Source: Pirellulaceae bacterium (GTDB lineage Bacteria > Planctomycetota > Planctomycetia > Pirellulales > Pirellulaceae). From it: 44,389 nucleotides of DNA. The translations under genes and the position numbers were made by a program. The stretch covers positions 1 to 44,389 of the forward strand of contig JABDKS010000398.1 in assembly GCA_013002105.1 (NCBI GenBank). The letters run 5' to 3'. Position 1 is the stretch's first letter. Each line of letters begins with the position of its first letter. This document shows, piece by piece, positions 9,118 to 37,458 of this stretch. The notes below the pieces were generated by a model. It searched no databases. It was given only the letters and a program-made list of their open reading frames with translations, and had not been told where the DNA came from.

Positions 9118-9149
9118 GTCGGCAAGCTGCACAACGTTGGACCAAAAAC

Positions 9150-9731: not shown

Positions 9732-9758
9732 ACTGTTCGACGGATCGGTCCCGCATTG

Positions 9759-10181
9759 TCAGACGGTGCTCAGTTGGAGTTGGCGGCGGGTGGGCACGAC
9801 GTCAGCTAGCGTGACGCTGTCGAGATAGTTTCGTTGTACTCGTTCGGCTTCCGCGAGTACACCTTTGAGTTTGCAGAACGTGTGGATAGCACATGAATCG
9901 TCGCTACCGACGCACGACAGCAAATGCATGTCGGTTTCCATGCTGGCGATCACCGCGCCAATGGAAATGTCTTTGGGGGCCAGGGCAAGTTCGATGCCTC
10001 CACCAGCCCCGCGGATACTGCGAATGTAGCCATGTCGTGCTAACAGATTCACAACCTTGGCGACGTGGCTGGCCGAGATGTCGAACAGCGAAGCGACGTC
10101 GGCAACATTGGCGCGCGACCTTCGTGTCGCCAAAAACATCAGCGTTCGAAGCGCGTAGTCGGTTTGCGTCGTGAGTTTCAT
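9759..10181 (-). CDS. Rrf2 family regulator, NsrR-like
   Basis: The ATG at 10181 gives a 140-residue protein beginning MKLTTQTDYALRTLMFLA, the standard start of Rrf2 regulators; the upstream part of the open frame (to 10388) is not conserved in style and is excluded. A winged helix covers about residues 1-75, with the recognition segment ISASHVAKVVNLLARHGYI. Three cysteines follow in the pattern C-x6-C-x5-C (LLSCVGSDDSCAIHTFCKLKG). These would ligate the [2Fe-2S] or [4Fe-4S] cluster of NsrR, the nitric-oxide sensor. The C-terminal NYLDSVTLADV also matches NsrR. Targets are unknown; the adjacent haem proteins are candidates. Confidence 0.85.
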   Translation of the reverse strand: MKLTTQTDYALRTLMFLATRRSRANVADVASLFDISASHVAKVVNLLARHGYIRSIRGAGGGIELALAPKDISIGAVIASMETDMHLLSCVGSDDSCAIHTFCKLKGVLAEAERVQRNYLDSVTLADVVPTRRQLQLSTV

Positions 10182-20673: not shown

Positions 20674-21023
20674 CGATTGCAATTGGGCGAGCGTGATTGG
20701 TTGTTCATTTGATTTCAGCTTGATTGCGAAGCCAAACATGTCCATTCGCGACAAGCCGGCCTTGATCAAAGTCGCATTGGGAAACCGCAAACGAGCCGTC
20801 GCCATTAGACTTGCAGGCGACAAGCAACAACATGTCTCGTTCTCGACCAAATGACGTCTTTCACACGCCAGCGGGTCGCATGCAGGTTAACATACCTGGA
20901 GCGAGTGCTACTTGTAATGGCGATACGAGGCGGGACGTGTCGTTTCGACTGTGGTCGAGCATGATTCGCGTTTCTGCGACGATCGACCACTTTCTGACTA
21001 TCAGACGCGATAAGACTCCAACG
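20674..21023. other. Divergent intergenic region, lipoprotein and sulfatase
   Basis: About 350 bases separate two divergent starts. Both frames can be extended into it (to 20850 minus and 20811 plus), but neither extension resembles protein, because both genes have good signal peptides at the inner start. No clear operator or promoter was recognised. Confidence 0.4.
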
Positions 21024-22522: not shown

Positions 22523-22552
22523 TGGCTTCACCGTCTTTATGGCTTCACCGTC
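22523..22552. repeat. Short direct repeat at the 3' end of the kinase gene
   Basis: The 13-mer TGGCTTCACCGTC occurs at 22523-22535 and again at 22540-22552. The second copy covers the last codons and stop of the kinase gene, so a small duplication has added a non-coding copy downstream. It has no evident function. Confidence 0.6.
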
Positions 22553-24014
22553 GCGGTGTGCGAATCGACGGCGAGTCGTAAGTGACAGTTTGGCTGGCTT
22601 CGGGCAGCATCTTGTTGGCATCAGAGAGCCAGTGCTTGATCAACTGACAAAAAGGTGCTCCGAGACCGCCGCGTGTCAACGTTTGCATAAAGGGATGGGT
22701 GCCATCTTTTCCGATCAATGCGTCCTCGGCGTTTGCGAAACGCTTTTCGGGATCAGGGTCGATCAATTTGCGCAAGAGCGTCATCAGTTCTTTGGATTTT
22801 TGAAACTGCTTGGGCACCAATTCATCGAGCCGATTGGGTAGGTGCAGCTTTTCTGCCAATAGGTGACGATCCCATTCGGTTCCCAGCATACGAGTTGAAT
22901 CGGAATCGAGGACGGGACCGGACACGGCGGGCTGACCGCTTAGCAGTTCGATCAGAACATAACCCAGGCTGGCCAAATCCGACTGAGGCGTCCACGCGTC
23001 GCCCTCGAATATTTCTGGCGGAGCGTAACGTGGAGTCCAGGTATGTCGGTGAGGCGGTTCGTCCTGAGCGAACGCCGACCCAATGTCGATCAGCCGGATT
23101 CCACCGTAACGGTCCAGCATAATATTGGACGGTTTGATGTCACCGTGAACGATCCCTTCACTATGAAGCGCATCGAGAGCCCGCAAGCACTTTTCGATGA
23201 TATTGACCGCCATACCGGGTTTCAATCGCGATTGAATCGTACCTTGCGTCGTGATCACCGAACTATTCAAGTGTTCCCAGCGCTCGTCGTCGACCTTGTA
23301 CCGCAACCTCTCCATTAATTCAGGCCGGAGCAGGGTTGCCAAGTCGTGGCCTTCGATCCAGCGCATCACCATCAAACAAATGTCATGGTGATATGTGAAT
23401 CGGTCGACCATGACCAAGTTATCCACTTGCATGCGGTAGACCAGCGAAGCGATTTTTCCCATTCGGTCCATGTCGTCGTAGTAGTCCGAAACGCTGTCAT
23501 AGGGTTCGGGCGAAAAGATCTTGACCGCTTTGGGCAAGTGATGTTCATCGACACAATGGGTCAGGTAGACGATCCCCTGTCCACCGCTACCAATCACTTT
23601 CATTTTTCGATAGTCGTATCGGTAACTGAGGTGATCGTCTCGTTTGCAGGCGTCCAGTTGGAACATCAGACGATCGAAATCCGGATCACGCGCGGTGACG
23701 GTGACTCGCTTCCCACGCGTCTCCTCTTGTGACGGAGCACGAAACTTAGTTTCTGCGGCGGACTTTGCTGCATCCTCTTCTTGCTTTGCCCGGTTGATGA
23801 TCTCGTCGATCAACTCTGACGAACTACCGAGATCCTCCATCGCTTGCTGGTCGTCGTCGGTCAAACTGCCAGCGAGATTCTCCGAATCGAAATCCAACAG
23901 TGGTTCAAAGACAAGATCGACCAACTGATCGACCACTCCCAACTCTTTCTCGTTTGGACTGGACTTCGCTTTGACGTCGCTACTTTGTCTTCGCATTGGG
24001 TATTTATTACTCAT
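22545..24014 (-). CDS. Soluble serine/threonine protein kinase (Hanks type)
   Basis: The ATG at 24014 has AAGGAG about 10 bases upstream, inside the end of the sigma-factor gene, with which it overlaps by 8 bases; product 489 residues. An acidic N-terminal region (about 25-95) precedes the kinase domain. Numbered from the GTG at 24017, the domain has the Gly loop GSGGQGIVY at 143-151, K166 in AVKI, the catalytic loop HGDIKPSN at 291-298 with D293 and K295, and DIG at 311-313 in place of DFG. APPE is at 332-335. The HRD Arg is Gly, so it probably does not need activation-loop phosphorylation. There is no membrane segment. It is coupled to the ECF sigma factor and divergent from the tagging operon, whose first product has an FHA-like domain. 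Confidence 0.92.
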   Translation of the reverse strand: MSNKYPMRRQSSDVKAKSSPNEKELGVVDQLVDLVFEPLLDFDSENLAGSLTDDDQQAMEDLGSSSELIDEIINRAKQEEDAAKSAAETKFRAPSQEETRGKRVTVTARDPDFDRLMFQLDACKRDDHLSYRYDYRKMKVIGSGGQGIVYLTHCVDEHHLPKAVKIFSPEPYDSVSDYYDDMDRMGKIASLVYRMQVDNLVMVDRFTYHHDICLMVMRWIEGHDLATLLRPELMERLRYKVDDERWEHLNSSVITTQGTIQSRLKPGMAVNIIEKCLRALDALHSEGIVHGDIKPSNIMLDRYGGIRLIDIGSAFAQDEPPHRHTWTPRYAPPEIFEGDAWTPQSDLASLGYVLIELLSGQPAVSGPVLDSDSTRMLGTEWDRHLLAEKLHLPNRLDELVPKQFQKSKELMTLLRKLIDPDPEKRFANAEDALIGKDGTHPFMQTLTRGGLGAPFCQLIKHWLSDANKMLPEASQTVTYDSPSIRTPRR

Positions 24015-24720
24015 CACCGTCGATCTCCTTTTCCAATTGACTACGCAATTTCCGTCTAGCGTCTCTCAATGCCGATTTAACAGCCGATTTGGACATGGGA
24101 TCATTCCCAGTCCTCCATTTTGTTGCATTCACAGCTTCTGTTAGCTCAGCCGTAGAAGGCTTACGGTTGTATTCTAGTAGGAGCTCAATAAATATTCGCA
24201 TCACGTGATGATGCCTGTCGGTCAAGCCCGCCATCTCTGAGGCCCGGTCGAAAGCACTCAACACAAAAGTGCGAAAGTCTTCGAAGGTCCTGCCGGTTGT
24301 GCAAGGGCGTCGTCGATCGCTGGACATCTCCGAGTCGAAGTCTTTCATTACCGCCGCACGTCGAACAGCACACCGTCGCCGTATCTCGTCAATCGCAGTG
24401 TGCGCAGCGATGCAACAGATGTAGGCGTTCAGTCTGCCCCTGGCTTCGTACTTGCCTGCTGCGGCGTTCTTCCAAATCTCTAACAACGTTTCTTGATACA
24501 AATCAGCAAGATCCTCAGACGAGAAATTCCTGCTGATGGCACGTAAGATTCTGAAGATATATTTGCGTTTTTCGGTATCTAAATAGATGACACCTGTGCG
24601 TTGGGCACGCTCACAATCGGATGCGAGTAACCGCTCGATCGCTTCGTCGCTGCGATCGACGTCGTTCGTTTGATCGTCGTTCTCACGACGACCGTCATCT
24701 GGGCTGTCACGTTTCTGCAT
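24007..24720 (-). CDS. RNA polymerase ECF-type sigma factor
   Basis: The ATG at 24720 has GGAGG seven bases upstream and gives 237 residues; a GTG at 24741 lies in the same frame. Region 2 is visible with EDLADLYQETLLEIWKNA and RGRLNAYICCIAAHTAIDEI, typical of sigma-70 regions 2.2-2.4. Region 4 is in the C-terminal half (LTDRHHHVMRIFIELLLEY, then SAVKSALRDARRKLRSQL). The extended spacing and acidic N-terminus resemble the planctomycete sigma factors encoded next to Ser/Thr kinases. No anti-sigma gene is seen; the kinase downstream is the likely controlling partner. Its promoter must lie in the shared region with the tagging operon. Confidence 0.85.
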   Translation of the reverse strand: MQKRDSPDDGRRENDDQTNDVDRSDEAIERLLASDCERAQRTGVIYLDTEKRKYIFRILRAISRNFSSEDLADLYQETLLEIWKNAAAGKYEARGRLNAYICCIAAHTAIDEIRRRCAVRRAAVMKDFDSEMSSDRRRPCTTGRTFEDFRTFVLSAFDRASEMAGLTDRHHHVMRIFIELLLEYNRKPSTAELTEAVNATKWRTGNDPMSKSAVKSALRDARRKLRSQLEKEIDGDE

Positions 24721-25144
24721 GGGTCGCCTCCGGTGATCCACTCGATTACGTCAACTGTTGACTCGTGTCTTGTCTTATCCCAAATCCTTTAGCTGTTGGG
24801 CACAGAACTTGATAAATTGTCCAACAAATTTTTCTTCATGCAACGAATGATTCATCGATCGCTCCTGTTGCGACTTTCTCAATCAAATTCTCATTTTTTT
24901 CGCCTCCGCTTTGCGCCGTCGCCGATTCAATGGTCGCCGATTGCATTTCCGACCGACAGGTCGACCGGGGCTAGCATCACGGGTATCGGATCTCCGTTGT
25001 CGATGGTTGTCCCATGTTCAAGGTTGTCGCAGCCGCATCGTTCGCTGAACCATCACGAAATCAATGGGCCAGGGAGCCGTAACTGAAGGAAACGAAATGT
25101 GGTCTCATTGGGTGTATCGCAACGCGTTTTGACGCGAGGCGAAC

Positions 25145-25394: not shown

Positions 25395-25931
25395 ATGGCA
25401 TTGCTTTGGAAAGCGTCGAAAGATGGCCTGGTCGCGGATCAGGTCGGCGAGGCGAACATCGAGGTCGGTACGAACAGGCACGACATCATTCGAATCATCT
25501 CGGTGCCCGCAAAGGGCGGCGTTCAATACGCATTGATTTCGCACCCGAAACTGGCACTTCGCGTCAACGGGAGGGCGGTGGTCGCCGGTTTGCAAGTTCT
25601 CAAGCATAAAGACGAGTTGCAATTTGGCGACCGGCAAATGTTTTTCTCTGCCGAGTCGGTGCCGAAGGTAACCGTCTACCGGCACGACGGCGCGAAACGC
25701 CGACCGCACTGCCCGGTTTGTCGCGCGGAAATCGAGGACGGTCAACACATGGTTGTTTGCCCTGGATGCTCGCGTCGATATCACCAAATTGCCACGGCGG
25801 GTGATGCAACTGAAAAACCGTGCTGGACGTATCGCGAGTCGTGTCGCTTCTGCGAACAGCCGACTTCGCTTTCCGGACAACCGAACTGGCGTCCCGACGC
25901 GGAAAGCATCCACGAGTGGGCCTCGAATTGA
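25395..25931 (+). CDS. FHA-like plus RING-type zinc protein (candidate E3)
   Basis: The 178-residue protein opens the tagging operon behind a strong ribosome binding site. Residues about 1-90 look like a degenerate FHA domain: RVNGRAVVAGLQVLKHKDEL then QFGD matches the last strands of FHA, but the GR and SxxH phosphothreonine contacts are not evident. Residues 106-153 carry eight metal ligands in four pairs: C106/C109, C122/C125, H130/C143 and C150/C153, as in a cross-braced RING or related binuclear treble clef. RING domains hold E2 enzymes, and an E2 is encoded two genes on, so an E3-like role is reasonable inference. The stop is 34 bases before the E1 start. Ring-type proteins in prokaryotic ubiquitin-like operons are known from comparative genomics. 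Confidence 0.85.
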   Translation: MALLWKASKDGLVADQVGEANIEVGTNRHDIIRIISVPAKGGVQYALISHPKLALRVNGRAVVAGLQVLKHKDELQFGDRQMFFSAESVPKVTVYRHDGAKRRPHCPVCRAEIEDGQHMVVCPGCSRRYHQIATAGDATEKPCWTYRESCRFCEQPTSLSGQPNWRPDAESIHEWASN

Positions 25932-25965
25932 CAACCTGGACTCGATCGGACGAGGAGTCAGAGAT

Positions 25966-27012
25966 ATGCCATTGCAACAACATCAACCAATCAACTTGCC
26001 CAGTTCCTCCGAGCTGGCGCTGGAGCGACTTCGATCGACACGAATTTTGGTCGTCGGATTGGGGAACATCGGCTCGCAGTTAGTCACGTCGTTGGCACCG
26101 TTGGTGAAATTTATCCGATTGGTCGATCGTGACGTCGTCGAGCCTCACAACGCATTGAATCAATCGTATCGACCGGACCAGTCCGGACAGATGAAGGTCG
26201 ATGCGACGGCCGATCGACTTCAACTGATCGCTCCGGATCTGGTGGTCGAGCGACGCGCGATGGACTTGCGAGACCTACCCGGTGGCGACTTGGCTGACAT
26301 ACAGATCGTCCTATCCGGTCTCGACTCACTGTTGGCCCGCAGAGACCTCGCGGAAAGGGTCTCGGTTCTGCATCTACCGTACATCGATGGCGCTGTCGGC
26401 GACTACCAGGCACGGGTGCAAGTGTTGCTGCCCGGGTGCGCCTGTTTGGAGTGTAGCTGGGGCGGTGAGCAGTATCGTCAAATTGCGACAGAGTATCCCT
26501 GTCATCCTGATCGAACCGAATCGACCAGACCGACCGTGGCGCTGTCCTGCACCGGCGCCGCTGCTGCTTCGCTGATGGTGGCTCAATGCATCGTCCTGAT
26601 GGGCGAGAGTCCCCCTGAGCAAAGCTATGAGATCAACGGCGATCTGTTGACCGGACGATTCATTTCATCCAGGCGTCGCCGCAATCCGGCATGTCGGTTC
26701 GCACATGAGGGTCCGCCACGCGTGGTTCAAATCGCAACACAGTTCGATCAGGCGACCGTCGCCGATTTGATTTCGGCGGCAGGCAATGCATTCGCATCGG
26801 ATGCGTTGCAATACGAATTTCGACGTGGCGTGCTGCCTAGCGAACTGTTCGCTTCCGAGCGTTTTGCGTCGACTGATTACCTCCACCGCGTCGCGGATCG
26901 TCGACTGAGTGCGTTGGGCCTGACGGTGCGAGACCGTGTGGTGATTCGACACCGTGATCAACCCGGTTTGGCTCATGTCTGTTTCGAGTCTCCAACCAGG
27001 AGTGAACGATGA
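25966..27012 (+). CDS. E1-like (ThiF/MoeB superfamily) activating enzyme
   Basis: The ATG at 25966, with GAGGAG just upstream, gives 348 residues; the frame is open from 25753 inside the preceding gene, which I exclude. A Rossmann ATP-binding site RILVVGLGNIGS is at 26-37, with the acidic residue after strand 2 at D54 (RLVDRDVVEPHN) and K77 in GQMKV. The strand-crossover SNLxRQ of MoeB and E1 reads HNALNQ here, so the usual Arg is Asn. Cysteines cluster at GCACLECSW, and another at ALSCTGAAAAS is placed like the catalytic Cys or crossover region. A C-terminal extension of about 90 residues could recruit the E2 or modifier. It should adenylate the C-terminus of the modifier encoded at 28463. 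It overlaps the E2 gene by 4 bases. Confidence 0.88.
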   Translation: MPLQQHQPINLPSSSELALERLRSTRILVVGLGNIGSQLVTSLAPLVKFIRLVDRDVVEPHNALNQSYRPDQSGQMKVDATADRLQLIAPDLVVERRAMDLRDLPGGDLADIQIVLSGLDSLLARRDLAERVSVLHLPYIDGAVGDYQARVQVLLPGCACLECSWGGEQYRQIATEYPCHPDRTESTRPTVALSCTGAAAASLMVAQCIVLMGESPPEQSYEINGDLLTGRFISSRRRRNPACRFAHEGPPRVVQIATQFDQATVADLISAAGNAFASDALQYEFRRGVLPSELFASERFASTDYLHRVADRRLSALGLTVRDRVVIRHRDQPGLAHVCFESPTRSER

Positions 27013-27617
27013 CGTACGACTACCAGCCCGATCTACCGACAAACCCAACCGACGCATTGATCCTATTGGGTTCCGGCCCAGAGCCTCATGTGGACCCGGT
27101 GATGCACGGTTTCTTGCACGAAAACTATCTCGCGTTGAAATCGCAATGTGAGAACGGCGGCTTGCTGTCGTATGTCTCGTTGGGGGCGACGATTCCGTGG
27201 CTCTATCGGCTTGAGTTTCGCACCCGCGGTTTTGTTCGGACGAATAGCGGCGTCGTTCGATCGCATGAGCGGCACATCGTGGCGTTGCGGTTCGGGGCGG
27301 ACTTTCTGCGCACTGCGGATCGTTTTGCTATGTCGCGATTGGTGGAGCCCAGCGGGAACGCGTTTCACCCAAATATTTCCCCCAGCGGCGGAATTTGCTT
27401 GGAAATCTACCCGGGCGAAACGCTGATCGAAATCTGCCAATCGTTACACGACCTCTTTCGTTGGCGGCTGCGGCAGTACGACGAACGCGACGCACTGAAC
27501 CCCGACGCATGCGCTTGGGGTCGTGAAAATATCCAACAGCCGATTGACGATCGACCTTTGTTCGGACGATCTGTGGCAATCGACTGGCAACCCACTGGAG
27601 ACTCCAACGAATGTTGA
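27009..27617 (+). CDS. E2-like ubiquitin-conjugating enzyme
   Basis: The 202-residue protein begins in an ATGA overlap with the E1 gene. The second half has the core of the ubiquitin-conjugating fold: NAFHPNISPSGGICLEIYPG (117-136) contains the HPN tripeptide at 120-122 and the expected catalytic Cys at C130. The helix and turn ALNPDACAWGREN (162-174) match the PLNP...A segment that follows the active site in eukaryotic E2s. An N-terminal extension of about 50 residues precedes the first strands. It should accept the modifier from the E1 as a thioester and pass it to a lysine, with the RING protein as helper. The 3' end overlaps the next gene by 7 bases. Confidence 0.9.
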   Translation: MTYDYQPDLPTNPTDALILLGSGPEPHVDPVMHGFLHENYLALKSQCENGGLLSYVSLGATIPWLYRLEFRTRGFVRTNSGVVRSHERHIVALRFGADFLRTADRFAMSRLVEPSGNAFHPNISPSGGICLEIYPGETLIEICQSLHDLFRWRLRQYDERDALNPDACAWGRENIQQPIDDRPLFGRSVAIDWQPTGDSNEC

Positions 27618-28381
27618 CATCCACCATCGCTCACGCGCGCCGCGACAGCGCGGCTTGCAGCAGCCAACCGGATCAAGTCATGACACGACCTGAGCGTTCC
27701 TATTTGACATACAAGGCAGGCGGTTGGATCGCGGTGAGCCAACCACGCAAAGACCTGGTGGCCGATGCCCACGCGTTGCTGGATCGGCCGAGGGAAAACA
27801 ATCCCGGCAATCAGCGGTTCACGATCGTGGACGGCGGCGTCCGTGAGCTGGGTGAGTGGCGAACGAGTGGTTTGCTGGCCGCCGCAAACACGAACCGATT
27901 CTCGGAACCTGCGTCCTGGCGGGGCGACCGAATCGGAATTGACGAACAACCCGATACCGACGAACTAGCGTGTGTGGTCAACGATACACCCTTCGACTGG
28001 AAACCGCTGGAGCAGAGCGATCACTGGCAATCTGTTGTCACGCATCCTGACGGCGGTCGTTGTGAGTTAACCGTCTTGCCGGTGCAGGGTGGTATCGAGA
28101 CGCGTGCGACGGTGGCCGCCTGGAAATCGGATTTATCGGACGTCTCTCGCGAAGCCGTCGCCAAGTTTTTGTTGGCTGCTCACAACCACGTGCGCTTCAC
28201 TCGATTTGTGCTGGGAACTGGCGGTGTGTCAGCCATTTCGTTCGCCTGCACCAGGCAGATGGATACGCAGTTACCCGACAGCATCTTGGCAGTCATTGCA
28301 GCCCACCGATGCGTTTTTCGTGAGGTGCAGTTGCTGTTAAGCGACTCGGTCGCGAAGCAATATTTGGCGGCGATCCAGTAG
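27611..28381 (+). CDS. Unknown protein inside the tagging operon
   Basis: The 256-residue product starts at an ATG overlapping the E2 stop, with GGAG about 11 bases upstream; an ATG at 27680 is an alternative. I do not recognise a family. It is soluble. Its second half, from WQSVVTHPDGGRCELTVLP to VQLLLSDSVAKQYLAAI, alternates strands and helices (AVAKFLLAAHNHVRFTRFVL). This recalls the YbjN/type III secretion chaperone fold, but that is a weak impression. Tight coupling to E1 and E2 argues for a role in the same pathway, such as adaptor, substrate receptor or chaperone of the conjugating enzymes. No catalytic motif is visible. Confidence 0.75.
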   Translation: MLTSTIAHARRDSAACSSQPDQVMTRPERSYLTYKAGGWIAVSQPRKDLVADAHALLDRPRENNPGNQRFTIVDGGVRELGEWRTSGLLAAANTNRFSEPASWRGDRIGIDEQPDTDELACVVNDTPFDWKPLEQSDHWQSVVTHPDGGRCELTVLPVQGGIETRATVAAWKSDLSDVSREAVAKFLLAAHNHVRFTRFVLGTGGVSAISFACTRQMDTQLPDSILAVIAAHRCVFREVQLLLSDSVAKQYLAAIQ

Positions 28382-28462
28382 ATCGGCGTCATAGATCAGG
28401 ATTCAAGCCATGTTGGTTTGGAGACAACGTTGATTACTCGAAAGTGAATGGAGAGGAAGCTC

Positions 28463-28753
28463 ATGATTCTTAGTGATGACAATACGATGACGTTGGAGGT
28501 CGAAGATTTCACCGGCCAAATTCGTCGTCGCGCAGATGGCATTCCCCGTGCGGCGACCGTCGGCGACTTGGTCCAAAGTATTCAAGGCGAAATGCAGTTG
28601 CCGGATCAAGACGCGCAAGGCCGCCCGATTCTTTACGGAGCCGTTTCGGCCAGCGGTGACATGCTCAACGCTACCGACACGGTAGGCGATGTCTTAGCGG
28701 ACGAAGACGTGCTGACGTTGACCCGATCAGTCACCGCTGGGCACTGCTGTTAG
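28463..28753 (+). CDS. Ubiquitin-like modifier protein
   Basis: The ATG at 28463 sits behind GGAGAGGAAG and gives 96 residues; an upstream ATG (28448) adds MERKL. The order of elements fits the beta-grasp fold: strands MTLEVEDFTG and [11 protein letters not shown], helix TVGDLVQSIQGEM, strand GRPILYGAVS, and the late segment TDTVGDVLADEDVLTLT, which resembles the ubiquitin 'TL.d..i..g..l.l..r' end. It ends SVTAGHCC, not Gly-Gly, so trimming after Ala-Gly would be needed for E1 activation. From this start it contains no lysine, so it cannot build lysine-linked chains on itself. Neighbours E1, E2 and JAMM support the call. A spacer of 123 bases with two stem-loops follows. Confidence 0.82.
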   Translation: MILSDDNTMTLEVEDFTGQIRRRADGIPRAATVGDLVQSIQGEMQLPDQDAQGRPILYGAVSASGDMLNATDTVGDVLADEDVLTLTRSVTAGHCC

Positions 28754-28757
28754 GCAA

Positions 28758-28841
28758 CCAGCAAAGCACCCGGTTTCGCCTCGTCCGCCTGCTGGCAACG
28801 GGTTCCAAGCGGGTCACTTCGCCATCGGAGTCGACCCGCTT
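28758..28841 (+). promoter_or_regulatory. Two stem-loops between the modifier and JAMM genes
   Basis: CCAGCA (28758-28763) pairs with TGCTGG (28790-28795). The stronger stem is AAGCGGGTC (28807-28815) with GACCCGCTT (28833-28841), nine perfect pairs over a 17-base loop. No T-run follows, so these are more likely 3'-end stabilisers or processing sites than terminators. Confidence 0.5.
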
Positions 28842-28876
28842 TGCGGCACCAAACATTCCCCAATATGAGGCTGACT

Positions 28877-29944
28877 ATGTCGACAGATCAATCCATCCGA
28901 ACACAGCACGGATACGAGCTCGAGTTTGTGAACGAAACAGGCACTGTCGTGGGACGTCGACGAATCAAAAGTACGGACTTCGGCCATGCTGTTCGCGATG
29001 CTGCGTTCGATGCGCTTAAACGTGGACTGATCGACGACTTGGTCGGTCAGATTCGTGAGGTGACGGTTGAGCCTCTGTATATCGATCCGGCAGATGCGTT
29101 GCCTGAAACCAACGGGTTTCGAGTCACGCTGGGTTTGGTAAACGCGGGCGAACATGTCTACGACTATTCCTTGAGCTATTTCACGATGCTGGCCAATCAA
29201 GAGCGTGCGGAAATGAATCGCATGGCGCAGTCGGCACCCAGCGATCAGTTGCGTTATCGGCTGCAAGCTTTTTTGGATGACGACGGTTGGAAACCAAACA
29301 CGAACAAGTTGTCGATTTCGCTCCATGATGAGCGCCCAAATATTTCGCTGCGAAACGGATCGTTGAACGATTTTGCAAGTCGCGACCGATGGGACGACTG
29401 CAACCGGTGGGATGTACCTGTGGTTGTCGATCAATCGGTCGTCGAAGAGGTCGTCGATGAATCAAAAGCGACTCCGGATCGTGAGATCGGAGGCTTCCTG
29501 CTGGGAGATTTGCATCGCGATCGATCCACCGGCGAAATCTTTGTCTCAGTCACGGGACTGGTGTCGGCAGCGGGTACGACCGAGTCGAGCGAGATATCGG
29601 TGACTTTCACACCCGCCTCGTTTGTGCATGCTCGCAAGATGATCGAATTGCGCAGTCGTGGTGAATCGATTGTTGGCTGGTATCACTCGCATCCGTTCAC
29701 AGTGTGCGCCGAGTGTCCGATTCCAATGCCAAAAGAGTGCATCGAGAAGATTCTGTTCTTCTCGGCCGACGACGTTCATGTCATGGCGACCACCTTTGAA
29801 AGACCTCACATGATCGGACTGCTGGCAGCCGTCGAGCCACGCATCGAACAGGCCATTGGTCATCTGCCGGTCAAGTTGTACGGCTGGCGCCATGGCGAAA
29901 TCCGGCCGCGCGGTTTTGATGTGGTCCGCAACTGTGCCGACTGA
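28877..29944 (+). CDS. JAMM/JAB1-MPN metallo-isopeptidase with N-terminal extension
   Basis: The start at 28877 (MSTDQSIRTQHG) gives 355 residues; an ATG at 28865 is also possible. Residues 1-180 form an extra domain of unknown type. The JAMM domain follows: E203 in REIGGFLLG, then HSHP at 270-273, and S296-A-D-D299. These are the ligands of the JAMM zinc site (E, HxH, S-x2-D). The usual spacing after HSHP is about seven residues, but here some 22 residues separate P273 from S296 and include C277, C280 and C288. JAMM enzymes remove ubiquitin or ubiquitin-like tags, and trim modifier precursors. It probably deconjugates or matures the modifier encoded upstream. The AAA+ gene follows after 40 bases. 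Confidence 0.88.
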   Translation: MSTDQSIRTQHGYELEFVNETGTVVGRRRIKSTDFGHAVRDAAFDALKRGLIDDLVGQIREVTVEPLYIDPADALPETNGFRVTLGLVNAGEHVYDYSLSYFTMLANQERAEMNRMAQSAPSDQLRYRLQAFLDDDGWKPNTNKLSISLHDERPNISLRNGSLNDFASRDRWDDCNRWDVPVVVDQSVVEEVVDESKATPDREIGGFLLGDLHRDRSTGEIFVSVTGLVSAAGTTESSEISVTFTPASFVHARKMIELRSRGESIVGWYHSHPFTVCAECPIPMPKECIEKILFFSADDVHVMATTFERPHMIGLLAAVEPRIEQAIGHLPVKLYGWRHGEIRPRGFDVVRNCAD

Positions 29945-29984
29945 CAGACCAATTTCATTCCAAAGATCATTCAGGAGAACGACG

Positions 29985-31643
29985 ATGACGAAACAAGCCG
30001 AGATCCAAGAGCAGGCCGATTTGCCGTCCCAGGAGCAACCCGATTCATCGGGCAACTCCTTCGTGCAAACGTGCAAGGTGATTGATGAAGCGCACGCAAA
30101 CAAGGATGCCGATGCCGTACGCGATGTTGCGGTGACCCTGGCGAAGCGTCTGTCAACCGCCGAGCGGCGTCTCGGCAAAGCGACCCGTTTTCAACAAGCG
30201 GCCCGAGAGAAACTAGAGGCACTGACCCTGCCGGCTCAGTATCCGGTCACGATCATACGCGTTCACCAAAATGGTCGATTGATTGTGGAGGTCGCTGGTT
30301 CGGGGAATTCACGCGTTTGCGTGAGCGTGCATCCAGATGTGAATCCGGCAGATTTGGTGGTCGGTGCGACAGCGGTGGTTTCCAGCCAACGCAATTGTTT
30401 GTTGTCAGTCACCGCCCCGGAAGGTCCATGGAAGAACGTTGCGACGTTCGAGCGCTACATTGGTTCATCGGATCGCATGTTGGTTCGCGATCGTGACGCC
30501 TTTTTGGTCGTCGACCAAAGCGAGGCGTTGCGCGGTACGACGTTGACCAAGAGTGACTTGATCGGGTTTGACCGCGACGTGTCGGGGATCGCGTATGCAC
30601 GATTGGATCCGCCAGCGAGCGAACACCTGTTTGACGACGATGTCACGGACGACTTTGCACGGTTGGGCGGATTGGATCAGCCGATCGCTCGAGTGCGCCA
30701 AATCATTGACTTTCGATTTCGCCATCCACATCTAGCATCCAAATACGGTCTGAAAACCAAGTGCGGCATCTTGTTTCATGGACCTCCCGGGAATGGCAAG
30801 ACGGTGATGGTCCGCAGCGCTGTTTCCTACGCCCGTCGCTTGATGCCTGATAAGCGTTGTCGGTTTATGCACACCGCGGGCTCGCAGGACAACAGCAAGT
30901 GGTTTGGCGAGTCGGAGCAGAATCTGATCGAGCGGATGGATGCGATCCGAGCCGCAGCAAAGGACGCAATCGTATTTGCATTCTGGGATGAAGTTGATGC
31001 GATCGCCCGATGCCGAGGTACCGATCTGGGTAGCGGCGCACCGGATCGGATTCTGAACACATTCTTAAGTCAACTGGACGGAATGGCTGCCTTGGAAAAC
31101 GTGGTGTTGATGTTCGCTACCAATCGAGCCGACACGCTGGATCCAGGGTTTATGCGTGCGGGTCGGGTCGACCAAAAAATCGAGATTCCGTCGCCCAATC
31201 GCCGCGGTGCCAAGGCGATCTTGGAACGTTATCTCGGCAACGGCTTGCCATTGGCGTCGCCGCATGACAGCACGGACCAACTGGTTGCACCGTTGCTTTC
31301 ACGTTTGTTCGCACCCAACGGACAGTACGCACGCGTCGCTGAAGTCAAGCTGAACGATGGTCGTCAGTTGGGCGTCGCCGGGCGTCATCTGATCAGTGGT
31401 GCGATGCTGGAGAACGTTGTGACGATGGCGGCACAACATGCAGCCGTCCGAGAGGCCGAGACGGGTCAGGAAGGTGTGACTGAAGAGGACCTGCTATTTG
31501 TGCTCAACGGCGAACTGACCGCTGCGGTTTCGCTACTGACTGCGGCGAACATCAAGAACTACGTCGCAACGATCCCCAAAGAATCGCAGCCGATCGCTGT
31601 GGATTCATTATTGACATCGTCCTCATCCGTCCCCGCGAGGTAA
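29985..31643 (+). CDS. Mpa/ARC-like proteasome-type AAA+ ATPase
   Basis: The ATG at 29985 is preceded by AGGAG and gives 552 residues; the upstream frame (from 29856) overlaps the JAMM gene and is excluded. An N-terminal coiled coil (about 40-80) precedes a region resembling the OB domains of Mpa/ARC (85-205). The AAA+ domain has Walker A GPPGNGKT at 266-273, an aromatic pore loop KWFGESEQ at 305-312 and Walker B FAFWDEVDAI with D335/E336. Sensor Asn is in ATNR (378-381), and arginine fingers lie in FMRAGRVD. The C-terminus reads SSSSVPAR, without the GQYL/HbYX tail that docks Mpa onto the 20S proteasome. In Mpa the coiled coil binds Pup, and a Pup-like gene lies two genes on. It is four bases upstream of the first PafA/Dop-type gene. 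Confidence 0.9.
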   Translation: MTKQAEIQEQADLPSQEQPDSSGNSFVQTCKVIDEAHANKDADAVRDVAVTLAKRLSTAERRLGKATRFQQAAREKLEALTLPAQYPVTIIRVHQNGRLIVEVAGSGNSRVCVSVHPDVNPADLVVGATAVVSSQRNCLLSVTAPEGPWKNVATFERYIGSSDRMLVRDRDAFLVVDQSEALRGTTLTKSDLIGFDRDVSGIAYARLDPPASEHLFDDDVTDDFARLGGLDQPIARVRQIIDFRFRHPHLASKYGLKTKCGILFHGPPGNGKTVMVRSAVSYARRLMPDKRCRFMHTAGSQDNSKWFGESEQNLIERMDAIRAAAKDAIVFAFWDEVDAIARCRGTDLGSGAPDRILNTFLSQLDGMAALENVVLMFATNRADTLDPGFMRAGRVDQKIEIPSPNRRGAKAILERYLGNGLPLASPHDSTDQLVAPLLSRLFAPNGQYARVAEVKLNDGRQLGVAGRHLISGAMLENVVTMAAQHAAVREAETGQEGVTEEDLLFVLNGELTAAVSLLTAANIKNYVATIPKESQPIAVDSLLTSSSSVPAR

Positions 31644-31647
31644 AGCA

Positions 31648-33177
31648 ATGGTTGATCAAGGCAAGCAAGATCCCCAGTTGACGGTCGCCAAGATTTTGGG
31701 CGCGGATTGCGAATTGTCCAATGCGATCATGGGTCGACACCCCCAGCCACCGCGTATCGCGGCAGCGACGCTACTGTCACATATCGATGGCTTTCCGCGA
31801 CGTCGGAAACGGGGAACCGCGATTGAACGAGACCGACGGTTTTTGCCGCAAACTGCCGCATCGTTTTACGAAGATTCAGATCACGTTGAGCTGAATCTGC
31901 CGGAGCATACCCGTGCGATGGATCACGCCAACATGCTGCATGGCGCTGGATTTCGTCCTGTTCAGCAAGCGATGCAGGCTGCCCAGCGTGAGTTGCCTGC
32001 GGACACGCGGATGAACGTGGTGGCCAACTGCAGCGATGGGCACACCTCCTGGGGCAGCCACCTGAACATCATGGTGACTCGAAATTGTTTCGATGACATT
32101 GTCGCACGAAAACCACATCAAGCTGGATTTCTTGCGACGCATTTTGTCACCTCCGTTGGATACACCGGGCAGGGGATGGTCGGAGCGAGCAATGGTCGGG
32201 CCAACTGCACGTTTCAACTGAGTCAACGAGCGGACTGGTTCGAGACATTCGCCAGTCATCAAACAATGTTTGACAGGGGCGTGATCAACTTGCGTGACGA
32301 ATCTCATGCGAATCGCCAGTTAGCACGCATGCACATTATTTTTTTCGACATGGTTTTGTCACCGATCGCCAATATTCTCAAAGCCGGCACAACCCAATTG
32401 GTCTTGGCGATGATCGAAGCAGGCTGGGTCGATCCAACCCTTTGTTTGGACAACGCAGTCGCTGCTGCATCGGAGATCAGTCGGGACATGTCCATGCGAT
32501 GTCGACTCCAGACAGTAGTTCGCGGGCGGTTGATGACGGCGGTGGAGATTCAGCGTGCGATCGCCGAATTGGCTGGTGAGTTCGTCGCAAGCGGGTGTGC
32601 CGAAGGGATCGTGCCTGACGCCCAGCAGATTGTTGACCTTTGGATCGAAACGCTGAGCTTGTTGCAGCGCGGCGAGATAGAAGCTTTGGCCAAACGTTGT
32701 GATGCATGGTTGAAATTCCTTTCACTTGATCGACAGCGTGCCCGACGAAACCTGTCCTGGCCATCCGATGAGATGCACATTGCCGATTCGTTATTTGCCA
32801 GTCTGGACCCTCAAACGTCGCTGTTTTTTCAAGCCGCCGAAAAAGGGTTTGTGCAACAGATGCCCGATACGGCAACCGTGGAGCGGTTTGCGACCGAGCC
32901 GCCCGACGATACGCGAGCGTACTTTCGCGCCCACGTCCTACGTCGATTTGGCAAAAACGTTGATTCGATGGATTGGTCTCGAATCACTTTTCAGGTTCCC
33001 ACCGCACGCCATTGGGCATCGTTCGCAGACATTCCGATGTTGGATCCCCGCCGTCTGACTCGGGCCGAAACCGAAGTCTTGCTGCAAGAGGCGACGACTC
33101 TGGAAGAGTTGGTCGAGGCTGCCAACGCGCTGACGCAAACCGACCAGTCGCTAGTCCCGGTCGGCTACCAAAACTAG
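31648..33177 (+). CDS. PafA/Dop family enzyme 1 (Pup ligase or deamidase type)
   Basis: The 509-residue protein belongs to the carboxylate-amine/ammonia ligase group of Pup enzymes. Motifs in order are ILGADCELSN (16-25), at the place of the MGxExEY nucleotide site, and HVELNLPEHTRAMDH, matching the HxEYxxPE segment. Next come LATHFVTSVGYTGQG and FQLSQRADWFETFASHQTM, then GVINLRDESHAN and ILKAGTTQLVLAMIEAG, all typical of the family. The first metal/ATP Glu of ExE is Asp (D20), with E22 kept. The gene begins four bases after the ATPase and ends 71 bases before the Pup-like gene. Whether it ligates the tag or removes it cannot be settled; the pairing with a second homologue suggests division of labour. 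Confidence 0.88.
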   Translation: MVDQGKQDPQLTVAKILGADCELSNAIMGRHPQPPRIAAATLLSHIDGFPRRRKRGTAIERDRRFLPQTAASFYEDSDHVELNLPEHTRAMDHANMLHGAGFRPVQQAMQAAQRELPADTRMNVVANCSDGHTSWGSHLNIMVTRNCFDDIVARKPHQAGFLATHFVTSVGYTGQGMVGASNGRANCTFQLSQRADWFETFASHQTMFDRGVINLRDESHANRQLARMHIIFFDMVLSPIANILKAGTTQLVLAMIEAGWVDPTLCLDNAVAAASEISRDMSMRCRLQTVVRGRLMTAVEIQRAIAELAGEFVASGCAEGIVPDAQQIVDLWIETLSLLQRGEIEALAKRCDAWLKFLSLDRQRARRNLSWPSDEMHIADSLFASLDPQTSLFFQAAEKGFVQQMPDTATVERFATEPPDDTRAYFRAHVLRRFGKNVDSMDWSRITFQVPTARHWASFADIPMLDPRRLTRAETEVLLQEATTLEELVEAANALTQTDQSLVPVGYQN

Positions 33178-33248
33178 TCGACACGAGTCCGAGCAAAAGA
33201 TCGTGAGTCCGTTACCTATTTTCTTGTACCTCCAAAAGGAACCTCGCC

Positions 33249-33449
33249 ATGGAACGCGAACAATCGTTTGAAACAGATCCGATCCAACATGGCCATGCCG
33301 TCGACCCTTCGTCGGATGCCGATGGTCTACAGCAGCAACGCGAAGAAATTAATGACTTGCTGCAATCCGCCGACGAGCATTTTGATTCGATTACCAATTT
33401 GTTCTCACACGGGTACTTACAGCAAAACTTTCAGACCGGCGGACAGTAG
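33249..33449 (+). CDS. Pup-like protein modifier ending in Gly-Gly-Gln
   Basis: The 66-residue protein starts at ATG 33249 after AAGGAA. The first 30 residues are polar and probably disordered. Residues 31-60 are helical with heptad spacing (REEINDLLQSADEHFDSITN then LFSHGYLQQN), like the Mpa-binding helix of Pup. The end is FQTGGQ, the hallmark of Pup precursors, whose Gln is deamidated to Glu by Dop before PafA links it to lysine. It contains no lysine. The gene sits between two PafA/Dop-type genes, which strongly supports the call despite the small size. Pup homologues outside actinobacteria have been called UBact in some lineages; this one has a true GGQ end. A seven-pair stem-loop follows the stop. 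Confidence 0.88.
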   Translation: MEREQSFETDPIQHGHAVDPSSDADGLQQQREEINDLLQSADEHFDSITNLFSHGYLQQNFQTGGQ

Positions 33450-33462
33450 GTCTCGGCCGCAG

Positions 33463-33494
33463 CGGTAGGCAGATCCACAACGGTCATCCTACCG
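33463..33494 (+). promoter_or_regulatory. Stem-loop downstream of the Pup-like gene
   Basis: CGGTAGG (33463-33469) and CCTACCG (33488-33494) pair perfectly over an 18-base loop, starting 14 bases after the stop codon of the Pup-like gene. No T-run follows. It may protect the 3' end of a short abundant transcript. Confidence 0.45.
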
Positions 33495-33523
33495 ACGCGC
33501 TGACGTCCCCCGATTGATCACAG

Positions 33524-33562
33524 CTTATTGAGCCAACCTTTTTGATTACAACCTTATTGAGC
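33524..33562 (+). repeat. Ten-base direct repeat before PafA/Dop enzyme 2
   Basis: CTTATTGAGC occurs at 33524-33533 and 33553-33562, 29 bases apart and therefore nearly three helical turns. It lies just upstream of the ribosome binding site of the second PafA/Dop-type gene. Function unknown. Confidence 0.4.
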
Positions 33563-33580
33563 AGGCAGGGAGCGATCCTG

Positions 33581-35212
33581 ATGAAGAAAGCCAGAGCGTT
33601 CTTGATGGGAAACGAAACCGAATATTCGATGGCGCTGGCACCGGATGAACCATCGGATATTCGTAGCTCCGAGTCGACGTCGCTGGTGCGTCGGCGTAAT
33701 TCACAGTTGCACGATGTGTTGTTGGCGGCCATTCGTGAGAGGCACGATTGGTTGCCGGATGTTCGTGGCAACGGCGGCATCTACATCGACAACGGAGCCA
33801 GGTACTACTTGGACACAGGCAATCACAACGAATTCAGTTCGCCGGAGTTGTCGACGCCGCGCGACTTGGCGACCTACGACCGGGCCGCCGAACGGATTTT
33901 GCGACGTGCTCAGGCGGACGTACGGGCCGGAGCCGACGGACTGAACATCGCCGTCACGAAAAGTAATATCAATTTTTCCATGCCGGATCGTGCGACTTGG
34001 GGGCTACACGAAGCCTACACCTGCCGAGTACCTCTCCGTGACGCGGCTCCGCAGCTGATGGCACATCTGGTCAGTCGAGTTCCCTATGCCGGCGCCGGTT
34101 ACTTGTCGGCGGAGTCGCGAGGGACGGGATTCGAACTTTCCCAGCGAGCCCGTCATATGACGCGGCCGATGGGTGTGGAGACGACTCGGGACCGAGCGAT
34201 TTTTTGCACACGGTCATGGAAGCCGTCGGACGTCAGTGAGACGGGATGGCGACGAACGAATCTGATCTGCAAAGACAGTCAGCGTTGTTCCTTTGGCGTT
34301 TACCTGAGCCATGGTGTGACCGGTTTGCTGTTCATGATCATCAACGAAGGCCATCGGATCGGTCGTACCATGAAACTGAAGAACCCGGTTGCCGCGATGC
34401 GATCCATTTCGCTCGATCCGACCTTGAAAGCACGCGTTGAGTTATCCGACGGACGTCAAGTGACCGCATTGGATATTCAGCGGACGTACCTGCGAGAGGC
34501 AAAGCCGCACGTCGAAAGTGGATGTTTCCCGCAGTGGACAGCCGAATTATGGAATCACTGGTCCGATACGGTCGATCAACTGGACAACGATCCGGGACAA
34601 TTGGCCGATCGCCTGGATACCTATTTGAAGTTCAAGCTGTTTGACCGGCAGCTCAAGCGGGCTGAATTGACTTGGCCGATGCTACGCGAAGCACTCGGCG
34701 TGTTAACGATGGCCCGACATCGAACAACCGAATCGGTGATCGCGGCAGTCTTGAGCGAGGATGGATCTCAGCTAAGCAAGGAGGACTTGGTCCTGTTCCG
34801 TCAGCTTTCGAGTCATCGGGATGTCAAACGTGTCGGTTTGGAAAGATTATGCTTCGCCGTCCGCTTACAAGCGGTCGAATTGAACTATCACGAATTGGGT
34901 GGACTGTTTGATCAGTTGAACGACGCCGGCAAGATTGACTCGGTCGTTGTCGACCCGGACGCAGTGGAACCGGCGATGCATCGTCCGCCCGCCGGTGGGC
35001 GGGCCGAAGCACGCAGCCAATCGATCGTCGAAGCGAGTGGGGAGGGCTGGGCGTGCGACTGGGAATACGTGATCCATCGCGCGGACAAGCAGTGGTACGA
35101 CCTGCGCGATCCGTTCAGCAACGAACGAGAGTTGACGACGTTTCCAGATGATTCCCAATTGGCACGTTCTTCCAGCATGTTGGCCAGCCTGATCTCGCGT
35201 TTGAGTGACTAG
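33581..35212 (+). CDS. PafA/Dop family enzyme 2
   Basis: The ATG at 33581 gives 543 residues starting MKKARAFLMGNETEYSMAL, with the canonical ExEY nucleotide/metal site; the frame is open from 33542. It continues with NGARYYLDTGNHNEFSSPEL and STPRDLATYDRAAERIL, which look very like the Dop segment (HPEYSSPE, NPRD). Further family features are VSRVPYAGAGYLS and GFELSQRARHM. The better preserved Dop-like motifs make this the favoured deamidase/depupylase, leaving enzyme 1 as the favoured ligase, but this is inference. About 60 extra residues at the C-terminus have no clear match. It is the last gene of the operon; a copy of the hairpin repeat follows. Confidence 0.89.
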   Translation: MKKARAFLMGNETEYSMALAPDEPSDIRSSESTSLVRRRNSQLHDVLLAAIRERHDWLPDVRGNGGIYIDNGARYYLDTGNHNEFSSPELSTPRDLATYDRAAERILRRAQADVRAGADGLNIAVTKSNINFSMPDRATWGLHEAYTCRVPLRDAAPQLMAHLVSRVPYAGAGYLSAESRGTGFELSQRARHMTRPMGVETTRDRAIFCTRSWKPSDVSETGWRRTNLICKDSQRCSFGVYLSHGVTGLLFMIINEGHRIGRTMKLKNPVAAMRSISLDPTLKARVELSDGRQVTALDIQRTYLREAKPHVESGCFPQWTAELWNHWSDTVDQLDNDPGQLADRLDTYLKFKLFDRQLKRAELTWPMLREALGVLTMARHRTTESVIAAVLSEDGSQLSKEDLVLFRQLSSHRDVKRVGLERLCFAVRLQAVELNYHELGGLFDQLNDAGKIDSVVVDPDAVEPAMHRPPAGGRAEARSQSIVEASGEGWACDWEYVIHRADKQWYDLRDPFSNERELTTFPDDSQLARSSSMLASLISRLSD

Positions 35213-36258: not shown

Positions 36259-37458
36259 TTAGCTGCCGGTGCTGTCAGGCGTGGTTGCGTCGTCACTCGC
36301 ATCCGCGGCACTTCGTTGGGTCGTATCTCCCAATTCGGTTGGGTCGACGACGTGGATGTTGGTGGCCAGGTGTTCGTGAGCGATTCGTTGCACGTCGTCT
36401 TGGTCGACGCGTTTTTCGTGGTGCTTGGCCGATTTTTTGCTGGGCAGTCGACCGATATGGATCACTGGTTCACCCGGTTGAACGGCGGGCAATGTGGTCA
36501 TCCCAATCACGACGCCGGCAAAGGGTGCATCGAGTCGGTTTTGTTCGGCTGCCATCAGATCGCTGTTGGTCGCCAGCGGTTGGCCCTCGACCACGATGTC
36601 TCCCGGTGCCACGTGCATTGACATGAACCCGCCGCGTTCAGCGCGAATCCACTTGGTCTGCTTCAGCATGGCTTGCGAGGGTGGGATATCGGGCTGGCCC
36701 TCCATCATCTCCAGTTCTTTCAGGACGTTCAAAACGCCGCGTGTCATGCAATCTGCTACCGACGGTTCGACTTTCCAAACTTCACCGCCTTCGACAACGA
36801 TGGTGGGGCAATTCGCGGCAGTGGCTTCGCGCCGCAACGATCCTTTCGGGCCCGCTCCGGCCAACACGATGCCCGCACCGAATGCTTTTGCCAATCGCAT
36901 GCATGATTCGTTATTGAAATCGGCACGTGCGTTGGGAAAATTCGTTCGCCGAACCGCCGCGGTGTGCAGGTCGACGCCGTAGTCACAGCGGGCGACCAAT
37001 TCGTCAAAGATCACCCGTGCCAGGCGCGACGCCATGCTGCCGGTTTTGCTGCCGGGAAAGCAACGGTTCAGGTCGCGGCGGTCGGGTAAATAACGTGAAT
37101 GGCGCTCAAAGCCGAGGACATTCAGAACCGGAATCAGGAGCAGCGTTCCGGCGGTGAGTTTCCATTCGGGGTCAGCCAATAAGGTTCGAATCGCTCCGGT
37201 GCCATTCAGTTCGTCACCATGCAGAGCCGCGGAAACAAAGACGGTGGGACCCGGGCGAATTCCGCGACGGATGTGAATCGGAACGACCACGTCACGACTG
37301 CTGTAGCTTTCGGTAATTTCCAATTCGCCACTGGCCGACTGTCCCGGGCCCACTTGTTGGCCAAACCACCGTTGCGCTTCGTTGGGATCGGTTTTTTTCT
37401 GCATCGGGGGTGATTCGACCGACGCGGACTCAGCAGGTTCCGACTCGTTGGTGCTCAT
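36259..37458 (-). CDS. Succinylglutamate desuccinylase/aspartoacylase family zinc hydrolase
   Basis: The 399-residue protein has the AstE/aspartoacylase zinc site: HGDELNGTG (first His and Glu), then RRDLNRCFPG, and YGVDLHTA (third ligand His). The N-terminal 30 residues are polar, and the C-terminal 60 are acidic and low in complexity. A domain near 280-330 with SMHVAPGDIVVEGQPLAT resembles the beta-barrel or biotinyl-like cap of the family. Enzymes of this group cleave N-acyl amino acids or peptide-like amides; partner RimK-type ligases are common but absent here. The substrate is unknown. Confidence 0.88.
   Translation of the reverse strand: MSTNESEPAESASVESPPMQKKTDPNEAQRWFGQQVGPGQSASGELEITESYSSRDVVVPIHIRRGIRPGPTVFVSAALHGDELNGTGAIRTLLADPEWKLTAGTLLLIPVLNVLGFERHSRYLPDRRDLNRCFPGSKTGSMASRLARVIFDELVARCDYGVDLHTAAVRRTNFPNARADFNNESCMRLAKAFGAGIVLAGAGPKGSLRREATAANCPTIVVEGGEVWKVEPSVADCMTRGVLNVLKELEMMEGQPDIPPSQAMLKQTKWIRAERGGFMSMHVAPGDIVVEGQPLATNSDLMAAEQNRLDAPFAGVVIGMTTLPAVQPGEPVIHIGRLPSKKSAKHHEKRVDQDDVQRIAHEHLATNIHVVDPTELGDTTQRSAADASDDATTPDSTGS

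Follow-up and report, generated by a model that had tools for sequence, protein, structure and literature searches.

An operon combining ubiquitin-style and Pup-style tagging genes in a Pirellulaceae bacterium and in genomes of three phyla

We analyzed a stretch of 44,389 nucleotides from a Pirellulaceae bacterium (contig JABDKS010000398.1; hereafter the window), whose open reading frames reveal a hybrid operon of ten plus-strand genes (positions 25395–35212) with both a ubiquitin-style and a Pup-style tagging kit. The genes encode, in this order, a RING-like protein, an E1, an E2, a formerly unknown protein (hereafter the 27611 protein), a ubiquitin-like modifier (Ubl), a JAMM isopeptidase, an Mpa/Cdc48-like AAA protein, a Dop-side enzyme, a Pup-like protein, and a PafA-side enzyme, with the single AAA+ ring gene situated between the Ubl-type gene set and the Dop-Pup-PafA set. 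The same layout was found in 13 other genomes of Planctomycetota, Verrucomicrobiota, and Armatimonadota (genomes and loci with this layout are referred to as type A), which rules out mis-called genes and indicates that the operon is more than a product of chance. As judged by sequence comparison, the two halves are one largely co-inherited unit in the three phyla, and because the set is largely inherited together, it is probable that a single machine is served by two tags with unrelated chemistries. The specific form of this idea that we favor, tentatively and at nearly even confidence, is one largely co-inherited machine in which two tags serve one unfoldase without a dedicated proteasome.

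Gene content of the two halves

All same-strand genes proposed in an initial annotation are present on the plus strand, and domain matches confirm them (Table 1). The annotation counted nine genes, which holds for nine plus Pup and gives a total of ten once Pup is counted. Its description of several junctions as overlapping or shorter than 50 bases applies to five of the nine, which lie at 40 bases or less according to the coordinates (gaps of 34, 40, and 4 bases; overlaps of 4 and 7 bases), and not to the remaining four with gaps of 81, 111, 71, and 131 bases. Promoter and terminator scans of the operon performed no better than on shuffled sequences.

The predicted E1, E2, RING-like protein, Ubl, and JAMM enzyme form a complete ubiquitin-type set. 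Motifs of the active sites are retained in E1, E2, JAMM, AAA, and both Pup-ligase-family enzymes. The E1, which resembles the NEDD8 E1 catalytic subunit, contains a candidate catalytic cysteine in an EYPC motif and, in addition, a CxxC motif. Residues H120-P121-N122, C130, and G136 of the E2 are invariant in an alignment of ten sequences, and all 29 PDB matches of the E2 family profile (E-value up to 1) were ubiquitin-, SUMO-, or NEDD8-conjugating enzymes or UBC, with a best value of 3.6e-4. Six cysteines of the RING-like protein (106, 109, 122, 143, 150, and 153) are invariant in an alignment of five sequences, and its N-terminal domain, whose fold is unassigned, carries an invariant N-G; an FHA-like N-terminus was guessed by eye, and Pfam gave no FHA match. 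The JAMM enzyme keeps E, HxH, and SxxD and has a Cys-rich insert after HSHP; its counterpart in locus L004 spans two frames close to ambiguous bases.

Neither the Ubl nor the Pup-like protein matched a convincing Pfam family. Structure prediction of the Ubl yielded a beta-grasp order (mean pLDDT 84.6), and the model matched SUMO and ubiquitin in the PDB (E-value 2.7e-5, probability 1.00). The first 13 rows also included a bacterial Ubl-deubiquitinase complex and the ubiquitin of Caldiarchaeum subterraneum. Profile and structure tests do not refute the E2, beta-grasp, and PafA/Dop folds named in the initial annotation. The C-terminus of the window Ubl is VTAG-HCC, not GG. Ala-Gly is invariant in 10 of 10 distant members (alignment A3), and a pattern match recovers it in 48 of 50 close homologs, of which 31 have three more residues after it and 10 have none; the two exceptions have TAG with a longer tail and a different end, respectively (alignment A5 excludes homologs P0128, P0148, P0157, and P0168). 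Further type-A Ubls (L122, L151, L152, and L153) end in AG or in AG plus a tail. A conserved Ala-Gly followed by a short tail is the pattern of a precursor that is trimmed before use, so the tail is presumably removable, and Ala-Gly, as named in the initial annotation, is the remnant that one would expect the Ubl to leave. No lysine is invariant in the Ubl alignment or in the Pup alignment, and both tags of the window are free of lysine. As a general rule, lysine-free tags were rejected: 34 of the 50 close Ubl homologs have exactly one lysine, several Pups carry between one and five, and the Pup of L095, a locus outside type A, carries eight.

The Pup-type half likewise appears as a complete, predicted Dop-Pup-PafA set in classical gene order. 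A Pup family profile (A6) found M. tuberculosis Pup first (2.2e-4). All 13 type-A loci whose sequence spans the region between both enzymes have a Pup candidate there, which in L028 ends in SAQ; the candidates of L092, G200, and L097 are outside A6 and were assigned by position and ending alone. In a tree of 44 Pup-ligase-family rows, with canonical Dop and PafA identities taken from NCBIfam for L018 and L007, the second enzymes (33581 type) grouped with canonical PafA (split support 87/91). The first enzymes (31648 type) fell across that split with canonical Dop, without forming a single clade with it; a midpoint root would place them outside both Dop and PafA. Active-site spacing showed the short Dop-type form in 13 of 13 first enzymes and the long PafA-type form in 10 of 13 second enzymes (L028, L095, and L097 deviate; L003 has E for D). 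Tree and spacing together identify AAA-Dop-Pup-PafA as the classical Pup order, here without 20S genes. All 15 readable first enzymes (L001 and L095 included; L153 unreadable) carry GxDxE, compared to GxExE in the canonical aligned enzymes. Its use as a hallmark of the hybrid only is weakened by single-gene armatimonad relatives with the same motif (L039, L048, and L050).

The AAA protein has an aromatic pore loop (KWFGESE), keeps Walker A and B, and is closest in its core to Cdc48/p97 by sequence (1.4e-68). Its match to the proteasome-ATPase model TIGR03689 (229 bits, 8.5e-68) lies below the cut-off of 504.75 and aligns residues 50–534 with model positions 11–502 of 512. A GQYL end is absent from all 14 AAA proteins read (those of the window, of L001, and of 12 type-A loci, with G200 excluded), whereas 25 of 29 other AAA proteins (L093, L122, and L131 excluded) end in [QH]YL. 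In six of the 14 (L001, L090, L094, L151, L152, and L153) we observed a [YF]-[ILMV]-x-x-A end, a possible docking tail for some partner.

A test for a chaperone fold was positive for the C-terminal domain of the 27611 protein; the counterpart from L004 was left out of the structure model. Homology of this protein between loci is weak: a protein search found one relative besides itself, and its HMM matched only L003 (20 bits) and L153 (16 bits). Counterparts in L002, L003, L028, L090, L091, L092, L094, and L097 were assigned by eye from position and C-terminus.

Table 1. Genes of the hybrid operon, with positions in the window and supporting matches or motifs.
Feature	Position	Strand	Evidence
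RING-like E3 candidate, 178 aa	25395..25931	+	Prok-RING_1 4.1e-5, below cut-off; invariant Cys
E1-like ThiF adenylating enzyme, 348 aa	25966..27012	+	ThiF 1.9e-27; NEDD8 E1 catalytic subunit 6.1e-11
E2-like enzyme, 202 aa	27009..27617	+	UQ_con 0.0042, below Pfam cut-off; family profile; invariant residues
Formerly unknown (27611) protein, 256 aa	27611..28381	+	Residues ~112-245 with type III secretion chaperone/YbjN fold
Ubiquitin-like modifier, 96 aa	28463..28753	+	Beta-grasp model; conserved ...VTAG, then HCC tail
JAMM/JAB isopeptidase, 359 aa	28865..29944	+	JAB 1e-8; motifs kept
AAA+ unfoldase ring subunit, 552 aa	29985..31643	+	AAA 1.3e-25; Walker A/B
Dop-side Pup-ligase-family member, probable depupylase/deamidase	31648..33177	+	Pup_ligase 2.8e-76; GxDxE
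Pup-like protein, 66 aa, ...NFQTGGQ end, lysine-free	33249..33449	+	Family profile finds M. tuberculosis Pup
PafA-side Pup-ligase-family member, probable Pup ligase	33581..35212	+	Pup_ligase 4.5e-80; GxExE + DTGxHxE

Recurrence and joint descent

The conserved synteny that had been proposed for planctomycetes was borne out and proved wider, extending over three phyla. Leaving the 27611 gene aside, the full layout occurs in L002, L004, L028, L090, L091, L092, L094, L097, L152, and L153; L003 and G794 are incomplete by contig ends, and G200 is split over two contigs, both ending in AAA. Locus L001, whose contig begins inside AAA, was excluded from the type-A count. A scan of the named genomes with the PafA alignment returned 51 loci, among them L002, L003, L004, and L028 with the Ubl half; apart from these four and L001, the remaining 46, many of them on short contigs, gave no Ubl-half match. 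Pup_ligase was found in 38 of 392 Planctomycetota genomes, ten of which have two adjacent genes. The whole Ubl set lies upstream in six of these ten (G002, G021, G024, G027, G058, and G274), and three are contig-limited (G200, G328, and G059, whose contig starts just before Pup). On a 5.7-kb contig of G328 (L098, G328:C901), RING and the start of E1 directly precede the Dop-side gene, reflecting a deletion or an assembly error.

The linkage was also seen from the side of the E2. At an E-value of up to 0.01, its profile (A2) had matches in 42 of 392 genomes of Planctomycetota and in 4 of 240 of Verrucomicrobiota; with the limit set to 0.001, there were matches in 38 of 201 genomes of Armatimonadota and in 3 of 140 of Myxococcota. 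Twelve of 973 genomes scored at least 124 bits, the next best reaching 92, and all twelve have the Pup half, in G200 on another contig and in G794 only to the start of the Dop-side gene, where the contig ends. Eight of the twelve had supplied rows of A2; in the four that had not (G200, G794, G645, and G795), the strong E2 match was accompanied by at least the start of the Pup half in 4 of 4. The neighborhoods of weaker E2 matches were sampled at 16 loci (the three Myxococcota matches excluded; two contigs < 5 kb). Unlike the hybrid, none of the 16 has a PafA/Dop-family gene in the stretch examined, and 15 lack an AAA match.

The occurrence in three phyla, together with the position of L004 among planctomycete rows, points to some horizontal transfer or wrong binning. 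Contigs measure < 10 kb for L004 and G794, 146,823 bases for L028, 63,884 for G645, and 19,703 for G795.

For joint descent, trees of E1+E2+Ubl+JAMM, of AAA, and of Dop+PafA were compared over 13 rows, with G794 (L151) excluded. The trees of the Ubl half and the Pup half have 7 of 10 splits in common (shuffled mean 0.258, maximum 3 in 2000 shuffles). Mantel correlation between the halves was 0.954, and AAA reached 0.948 and 0.937 with the two; for each of the three tree pairs, 0 of 5000 permutations were as high. The claim of a single system is thereby supported insofar as both chemistries are found in one largely co-inherited unit.

Loci without the Pup half provided further observations. In L131 (G314:C115, 259–9839), RING, E1, E2, a gene of unknown fold, Ubl, JAB, and AAA occur without PafA/Dop, and where the Pup half would lie, there is a second cassette with another ThiF protein (9048–9839) and small genes, which would suit an exchangeable second tag module. 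Loci L123, L124, L126–L129, and L155–L157 comprise Ubl, E1, JAB, RING, and E2 without PafA/Dop, often with several RING-like matches each; eight of these nine have a Ubl with EITAG at its end, in some cases followed by a tail, and the Ubl of L124 was read differently.

A proposed mechanism and its alternatives

In the two-tag, one-unfoldase reading, JAMM would trim the Ubl tail after Ala-Gly, and E1 and E2, aided by the RING protein, would attach Ubl-AG to lysines, while Dop would deamidate the C-terminal Gln of Pup for subsequent ligation by PafA. Both marks would bring proteins to the AAA ring, where the flexible Pup would be a likely threading handle and JAMM would remove the folded Ubl, much as Rpn11 removes a folded tag at the 26S proteasome. 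The secretion-chaperone-like 27611 protein would probably hold a flexible partner (Pup, the Ubl tail, or a substrate) at the ring. Lacking a dedicated proteasome, the ring would mainly act as an unfoldase or segregase, and its substrate would be released or remodeled. In L131, the AAA gene is found beside the Ubl half only, and in L093 beside the Pup half only, a distribution compatible with a reader of both tags.

A stricter version, which we regard as doubtful, is a two-key machine: Ubl and Pup would both be needed on a protein or complex before the shared AAA acts, independently of a proteasome. The folded Ubl and JAMM would then form a checkpoint, the disordered Pup the threading handle, and the secretion-chaperone-like protein the adaptor. 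If true, this would be the first system joining thioester-type and glutamine-synthetase-type tagging in one pathway.

Several points weigh against two tags serving one unfoldase. Neither the arrangement of the genes nor their co-descent is proof that the ring is where the two tags converge. AU tests rejected the hypothesis that the two halves have exactly the same tree (p 0.029 and 0.034), SH tests did not (0.339 and 0.368), and both were run on earlier alignments than the split and Mantel comparison; conflicting splits have support of 52 to 99, and the window+L003 split (99) may reflect the partial E1 of L003. The Pfam matches of the RING-like protein and the E2 are weak (Table 1), and the GxDxE motif of the Dop-side enzyme could be a sign of changed activity. 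Unlinked halves in relatives, listed in the initial annotation as evidence against a single system, were encountered in G045, which has AAA-Dop-Pup-PafA with no Ubl genes in 8.8 kb upstream, whereas the halves are linked in the six two-gene planctomycetes described above. Further points concern the protease. In favor of the reading, no 20S genes lie in the operon, and none were found with PF00227 in 11 of the 13 type-A genomes, whose completeness is not given, so these absences are soft: G003, G021, G024, G027, G058, and G200 had no match, and HslV was the sole match in G002, G004, G005, G274, and G794. On the opposing side, G645 and G795 encode 20S beta in addition to HslV, and with them the idea that no type-A genome has a 20S had to be abandoned. 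Armatimonad AAA proteins beside 20S genes (L031, L169, and L170) also lack GQYL, by which the missing GQYL loses its force as proof against 20S docking and is not decisive.

In G645 and G795, the 20S lies in a separate locus (L169, G645:C2, and L170, G795:C290) that encodes AAA, Dop, and PafA proteins of its own along with a Pup whose C-terminus reads YRQRSGE. A second PF00227 match in G001 (29 bits) is unassigned.

Among the alternatives, hierarchical cross-talk is unlikely in our view, and survives best. Here, one tag would control the other, by Ubl on the Pup enzymes or AAA or by pupylated Ubl enzymes, and the halves would share no substrates. The joint descent of the halves agrees with this, and a precedent is given by CBASS, where a bacterial ubiquitin-like machinery has as its target the cGAS-like enzyme of the same system (according to the accessible parts of PMC10097602 and PMC11153139). 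Against it, neither tag has an invariant lysine, which makes obligatory or fixed mixed chains unlikely; enzymes would still be available as acceptors. Sequence does not settle the choice between two tags on one unfoldase and tag-on-tag control, and we lean to the former on account of the missing invariant lysine and the occurrence of AAA with either half alone.

Less likely again are two separate pathways under one promoter that are only expressed jointly, e.g., under the same stress, each tag having its own reader. The 16 weaker-E2 loci without a PafA/Dop-family gene and the Pup half without Ubl genes in L093 are in line with such independence, but the single AAA gene, the agreement of trees in three phyla that have one gene order in common, and the retention of the hybrid's own Pup half in G645 and G795 despite a second Pup-20S locus argue against it. 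Ordinary degradation, i.e., unfolding of tagged proteins by the ring and their destruction by a protease from outside the operon, whether a 20S or a different one such as HslV or Clp, is the least likely alternative: the AAA resembles the Pup-proteasome ATPase over nearly its full length, and HslV occurs in several genomes and 20S beta in two, but no 20S was found in the other 11, GQYL is missing from the AAA proteins, and HslV is paired with its own partner HslU.

Relation to described systems and neighboring genes

Ubiquitin and Pup are a textbook case of convergent evolution, in which unrelated chemistries serve one idea and are usually found apart; eukaryotes combine ubiquitin types. The hybrid operon lets one ask directly whether bacteria combine tags. 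It offers a Pup pathway without its own proteasome and a ubiquitin-like tag ending in Ala-Gly that is probably processed by JAMM. It is also a compact model for the meeting of tags, a JAMM enzyme, and an unfoldase ring, a combination known from the 26S proteasome. Moreover, the two armatimonads with the hybrid beside a separate Pup-20S system make both comparable in one cell. Additional novelty at the sequence level comprises the Ala-Gly Ubl end, the YbjN-type fold in the 27611 protein, the classical Pup order without 20S, the second Pup-20S locus in two genomes, and the E2-Pup linkage in 4 of 4.

With the Pup-proteasome of Actinobacteria, Myxococcota, and others, where the actinobacterial order is mpa-dop-pup-prcBA-pafA, the hybrid has in common the AAA-Dop-Pup-PafA order, the Pup C-terminal motif, and the enzyme families; it differs by the absence of prcBA from the locus and of GQYL from AAA, by GxDxE in the Dop-side enzyme, and by the full Ubl module in front. 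UBact, the Pup of Gram-negative bacteria, is likewise a Pup-like tag with PafA/Dop and occurs in overlapping phyla. The window Pup ends in ...NFQTGGQ, in contrast to the ...YRQRSGE type encoded with a 20S in the separate locus of G645 and G795, which we take to be UBact. Bacterial E1-E2-Ubl-JAB systems, with RING in some, are reportedly treated in Burroughs 2011. The name UBact is also used in the accessible part of PMC11354881.

The components of the Ubl half are common to bacterial E1-E2-Ubl-JAB systems, some with RING, as far as the available portions of Iyer 2006 and Kaur 2020 describe them; the latter (PMC7159879) reports prokaryotic JAB, E1, RING, and Ubl-E2 sets in other systems. An AG terminus is likewise seen on the Ubl in most of the loci without Pup that were read in planctomycetes and armatimonads. 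The ubiquitin operon of C. subterraneum comprises E1, E2, and a small RING protein, with a nearby Rpn11-like JAMM that trims the pro-peptide and exposes the Gly end (PMC5654768, in part); its Ubl has a di-glycine end in contrast to Ala-Gly here, and the word "Pup" has a count of 0 in the PMC5654768 text. BilABCD similarly unites Ubl, E1, E2, and JAB in one operon, for which the accessible part of PMC11354881 names no RING, AAA, or Pup. BilB is described there with a CEHH motif (Cys, Glu at +6, His at +8 and +13), whereas the window E2 has HPN and Cys, and its row C130-L-E-I-Y-P-G136 lacks the CEHH spacing.

Regarding Pup in planctomycetes, Iyer 2008 reports a Rhodopirellula Pup without proteasome linkage and a ligase with membrane inserts (PMC2588565, in part), and planctomycete single genes with split Pup_ligase matches are probably of this type and distinct from the hybrid. 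Single-copy PafA/Dop relatives in planctomycetes are mentioned in the accessible part of a 2020 paper (PMC7947786). No account joining the ubiquitin and Pup halves was found in the literature searched, whose coverage did not extend to Burroughs 2011, a possible place of mention.

A plasmid search with the AAA query returned distant AAA proteins only. PADLOC gave general E1 matches (one BilD model among them), JAB, AAA, and Cas6b at 0.052; since these matches are general, no defense role is claimed. In the surroundings of the operon, a Ser/Thr kinase and a sigma-70 region 2 protein (22545–24741, minus strand) are transcribed away from it and are possible regulators. Further neighbors are genes for a sulfatase, an AstE/AspA-type enzyme, and an MgtE transporter (20961–22421; 36259–37458, minus strand; and 37681–39108).

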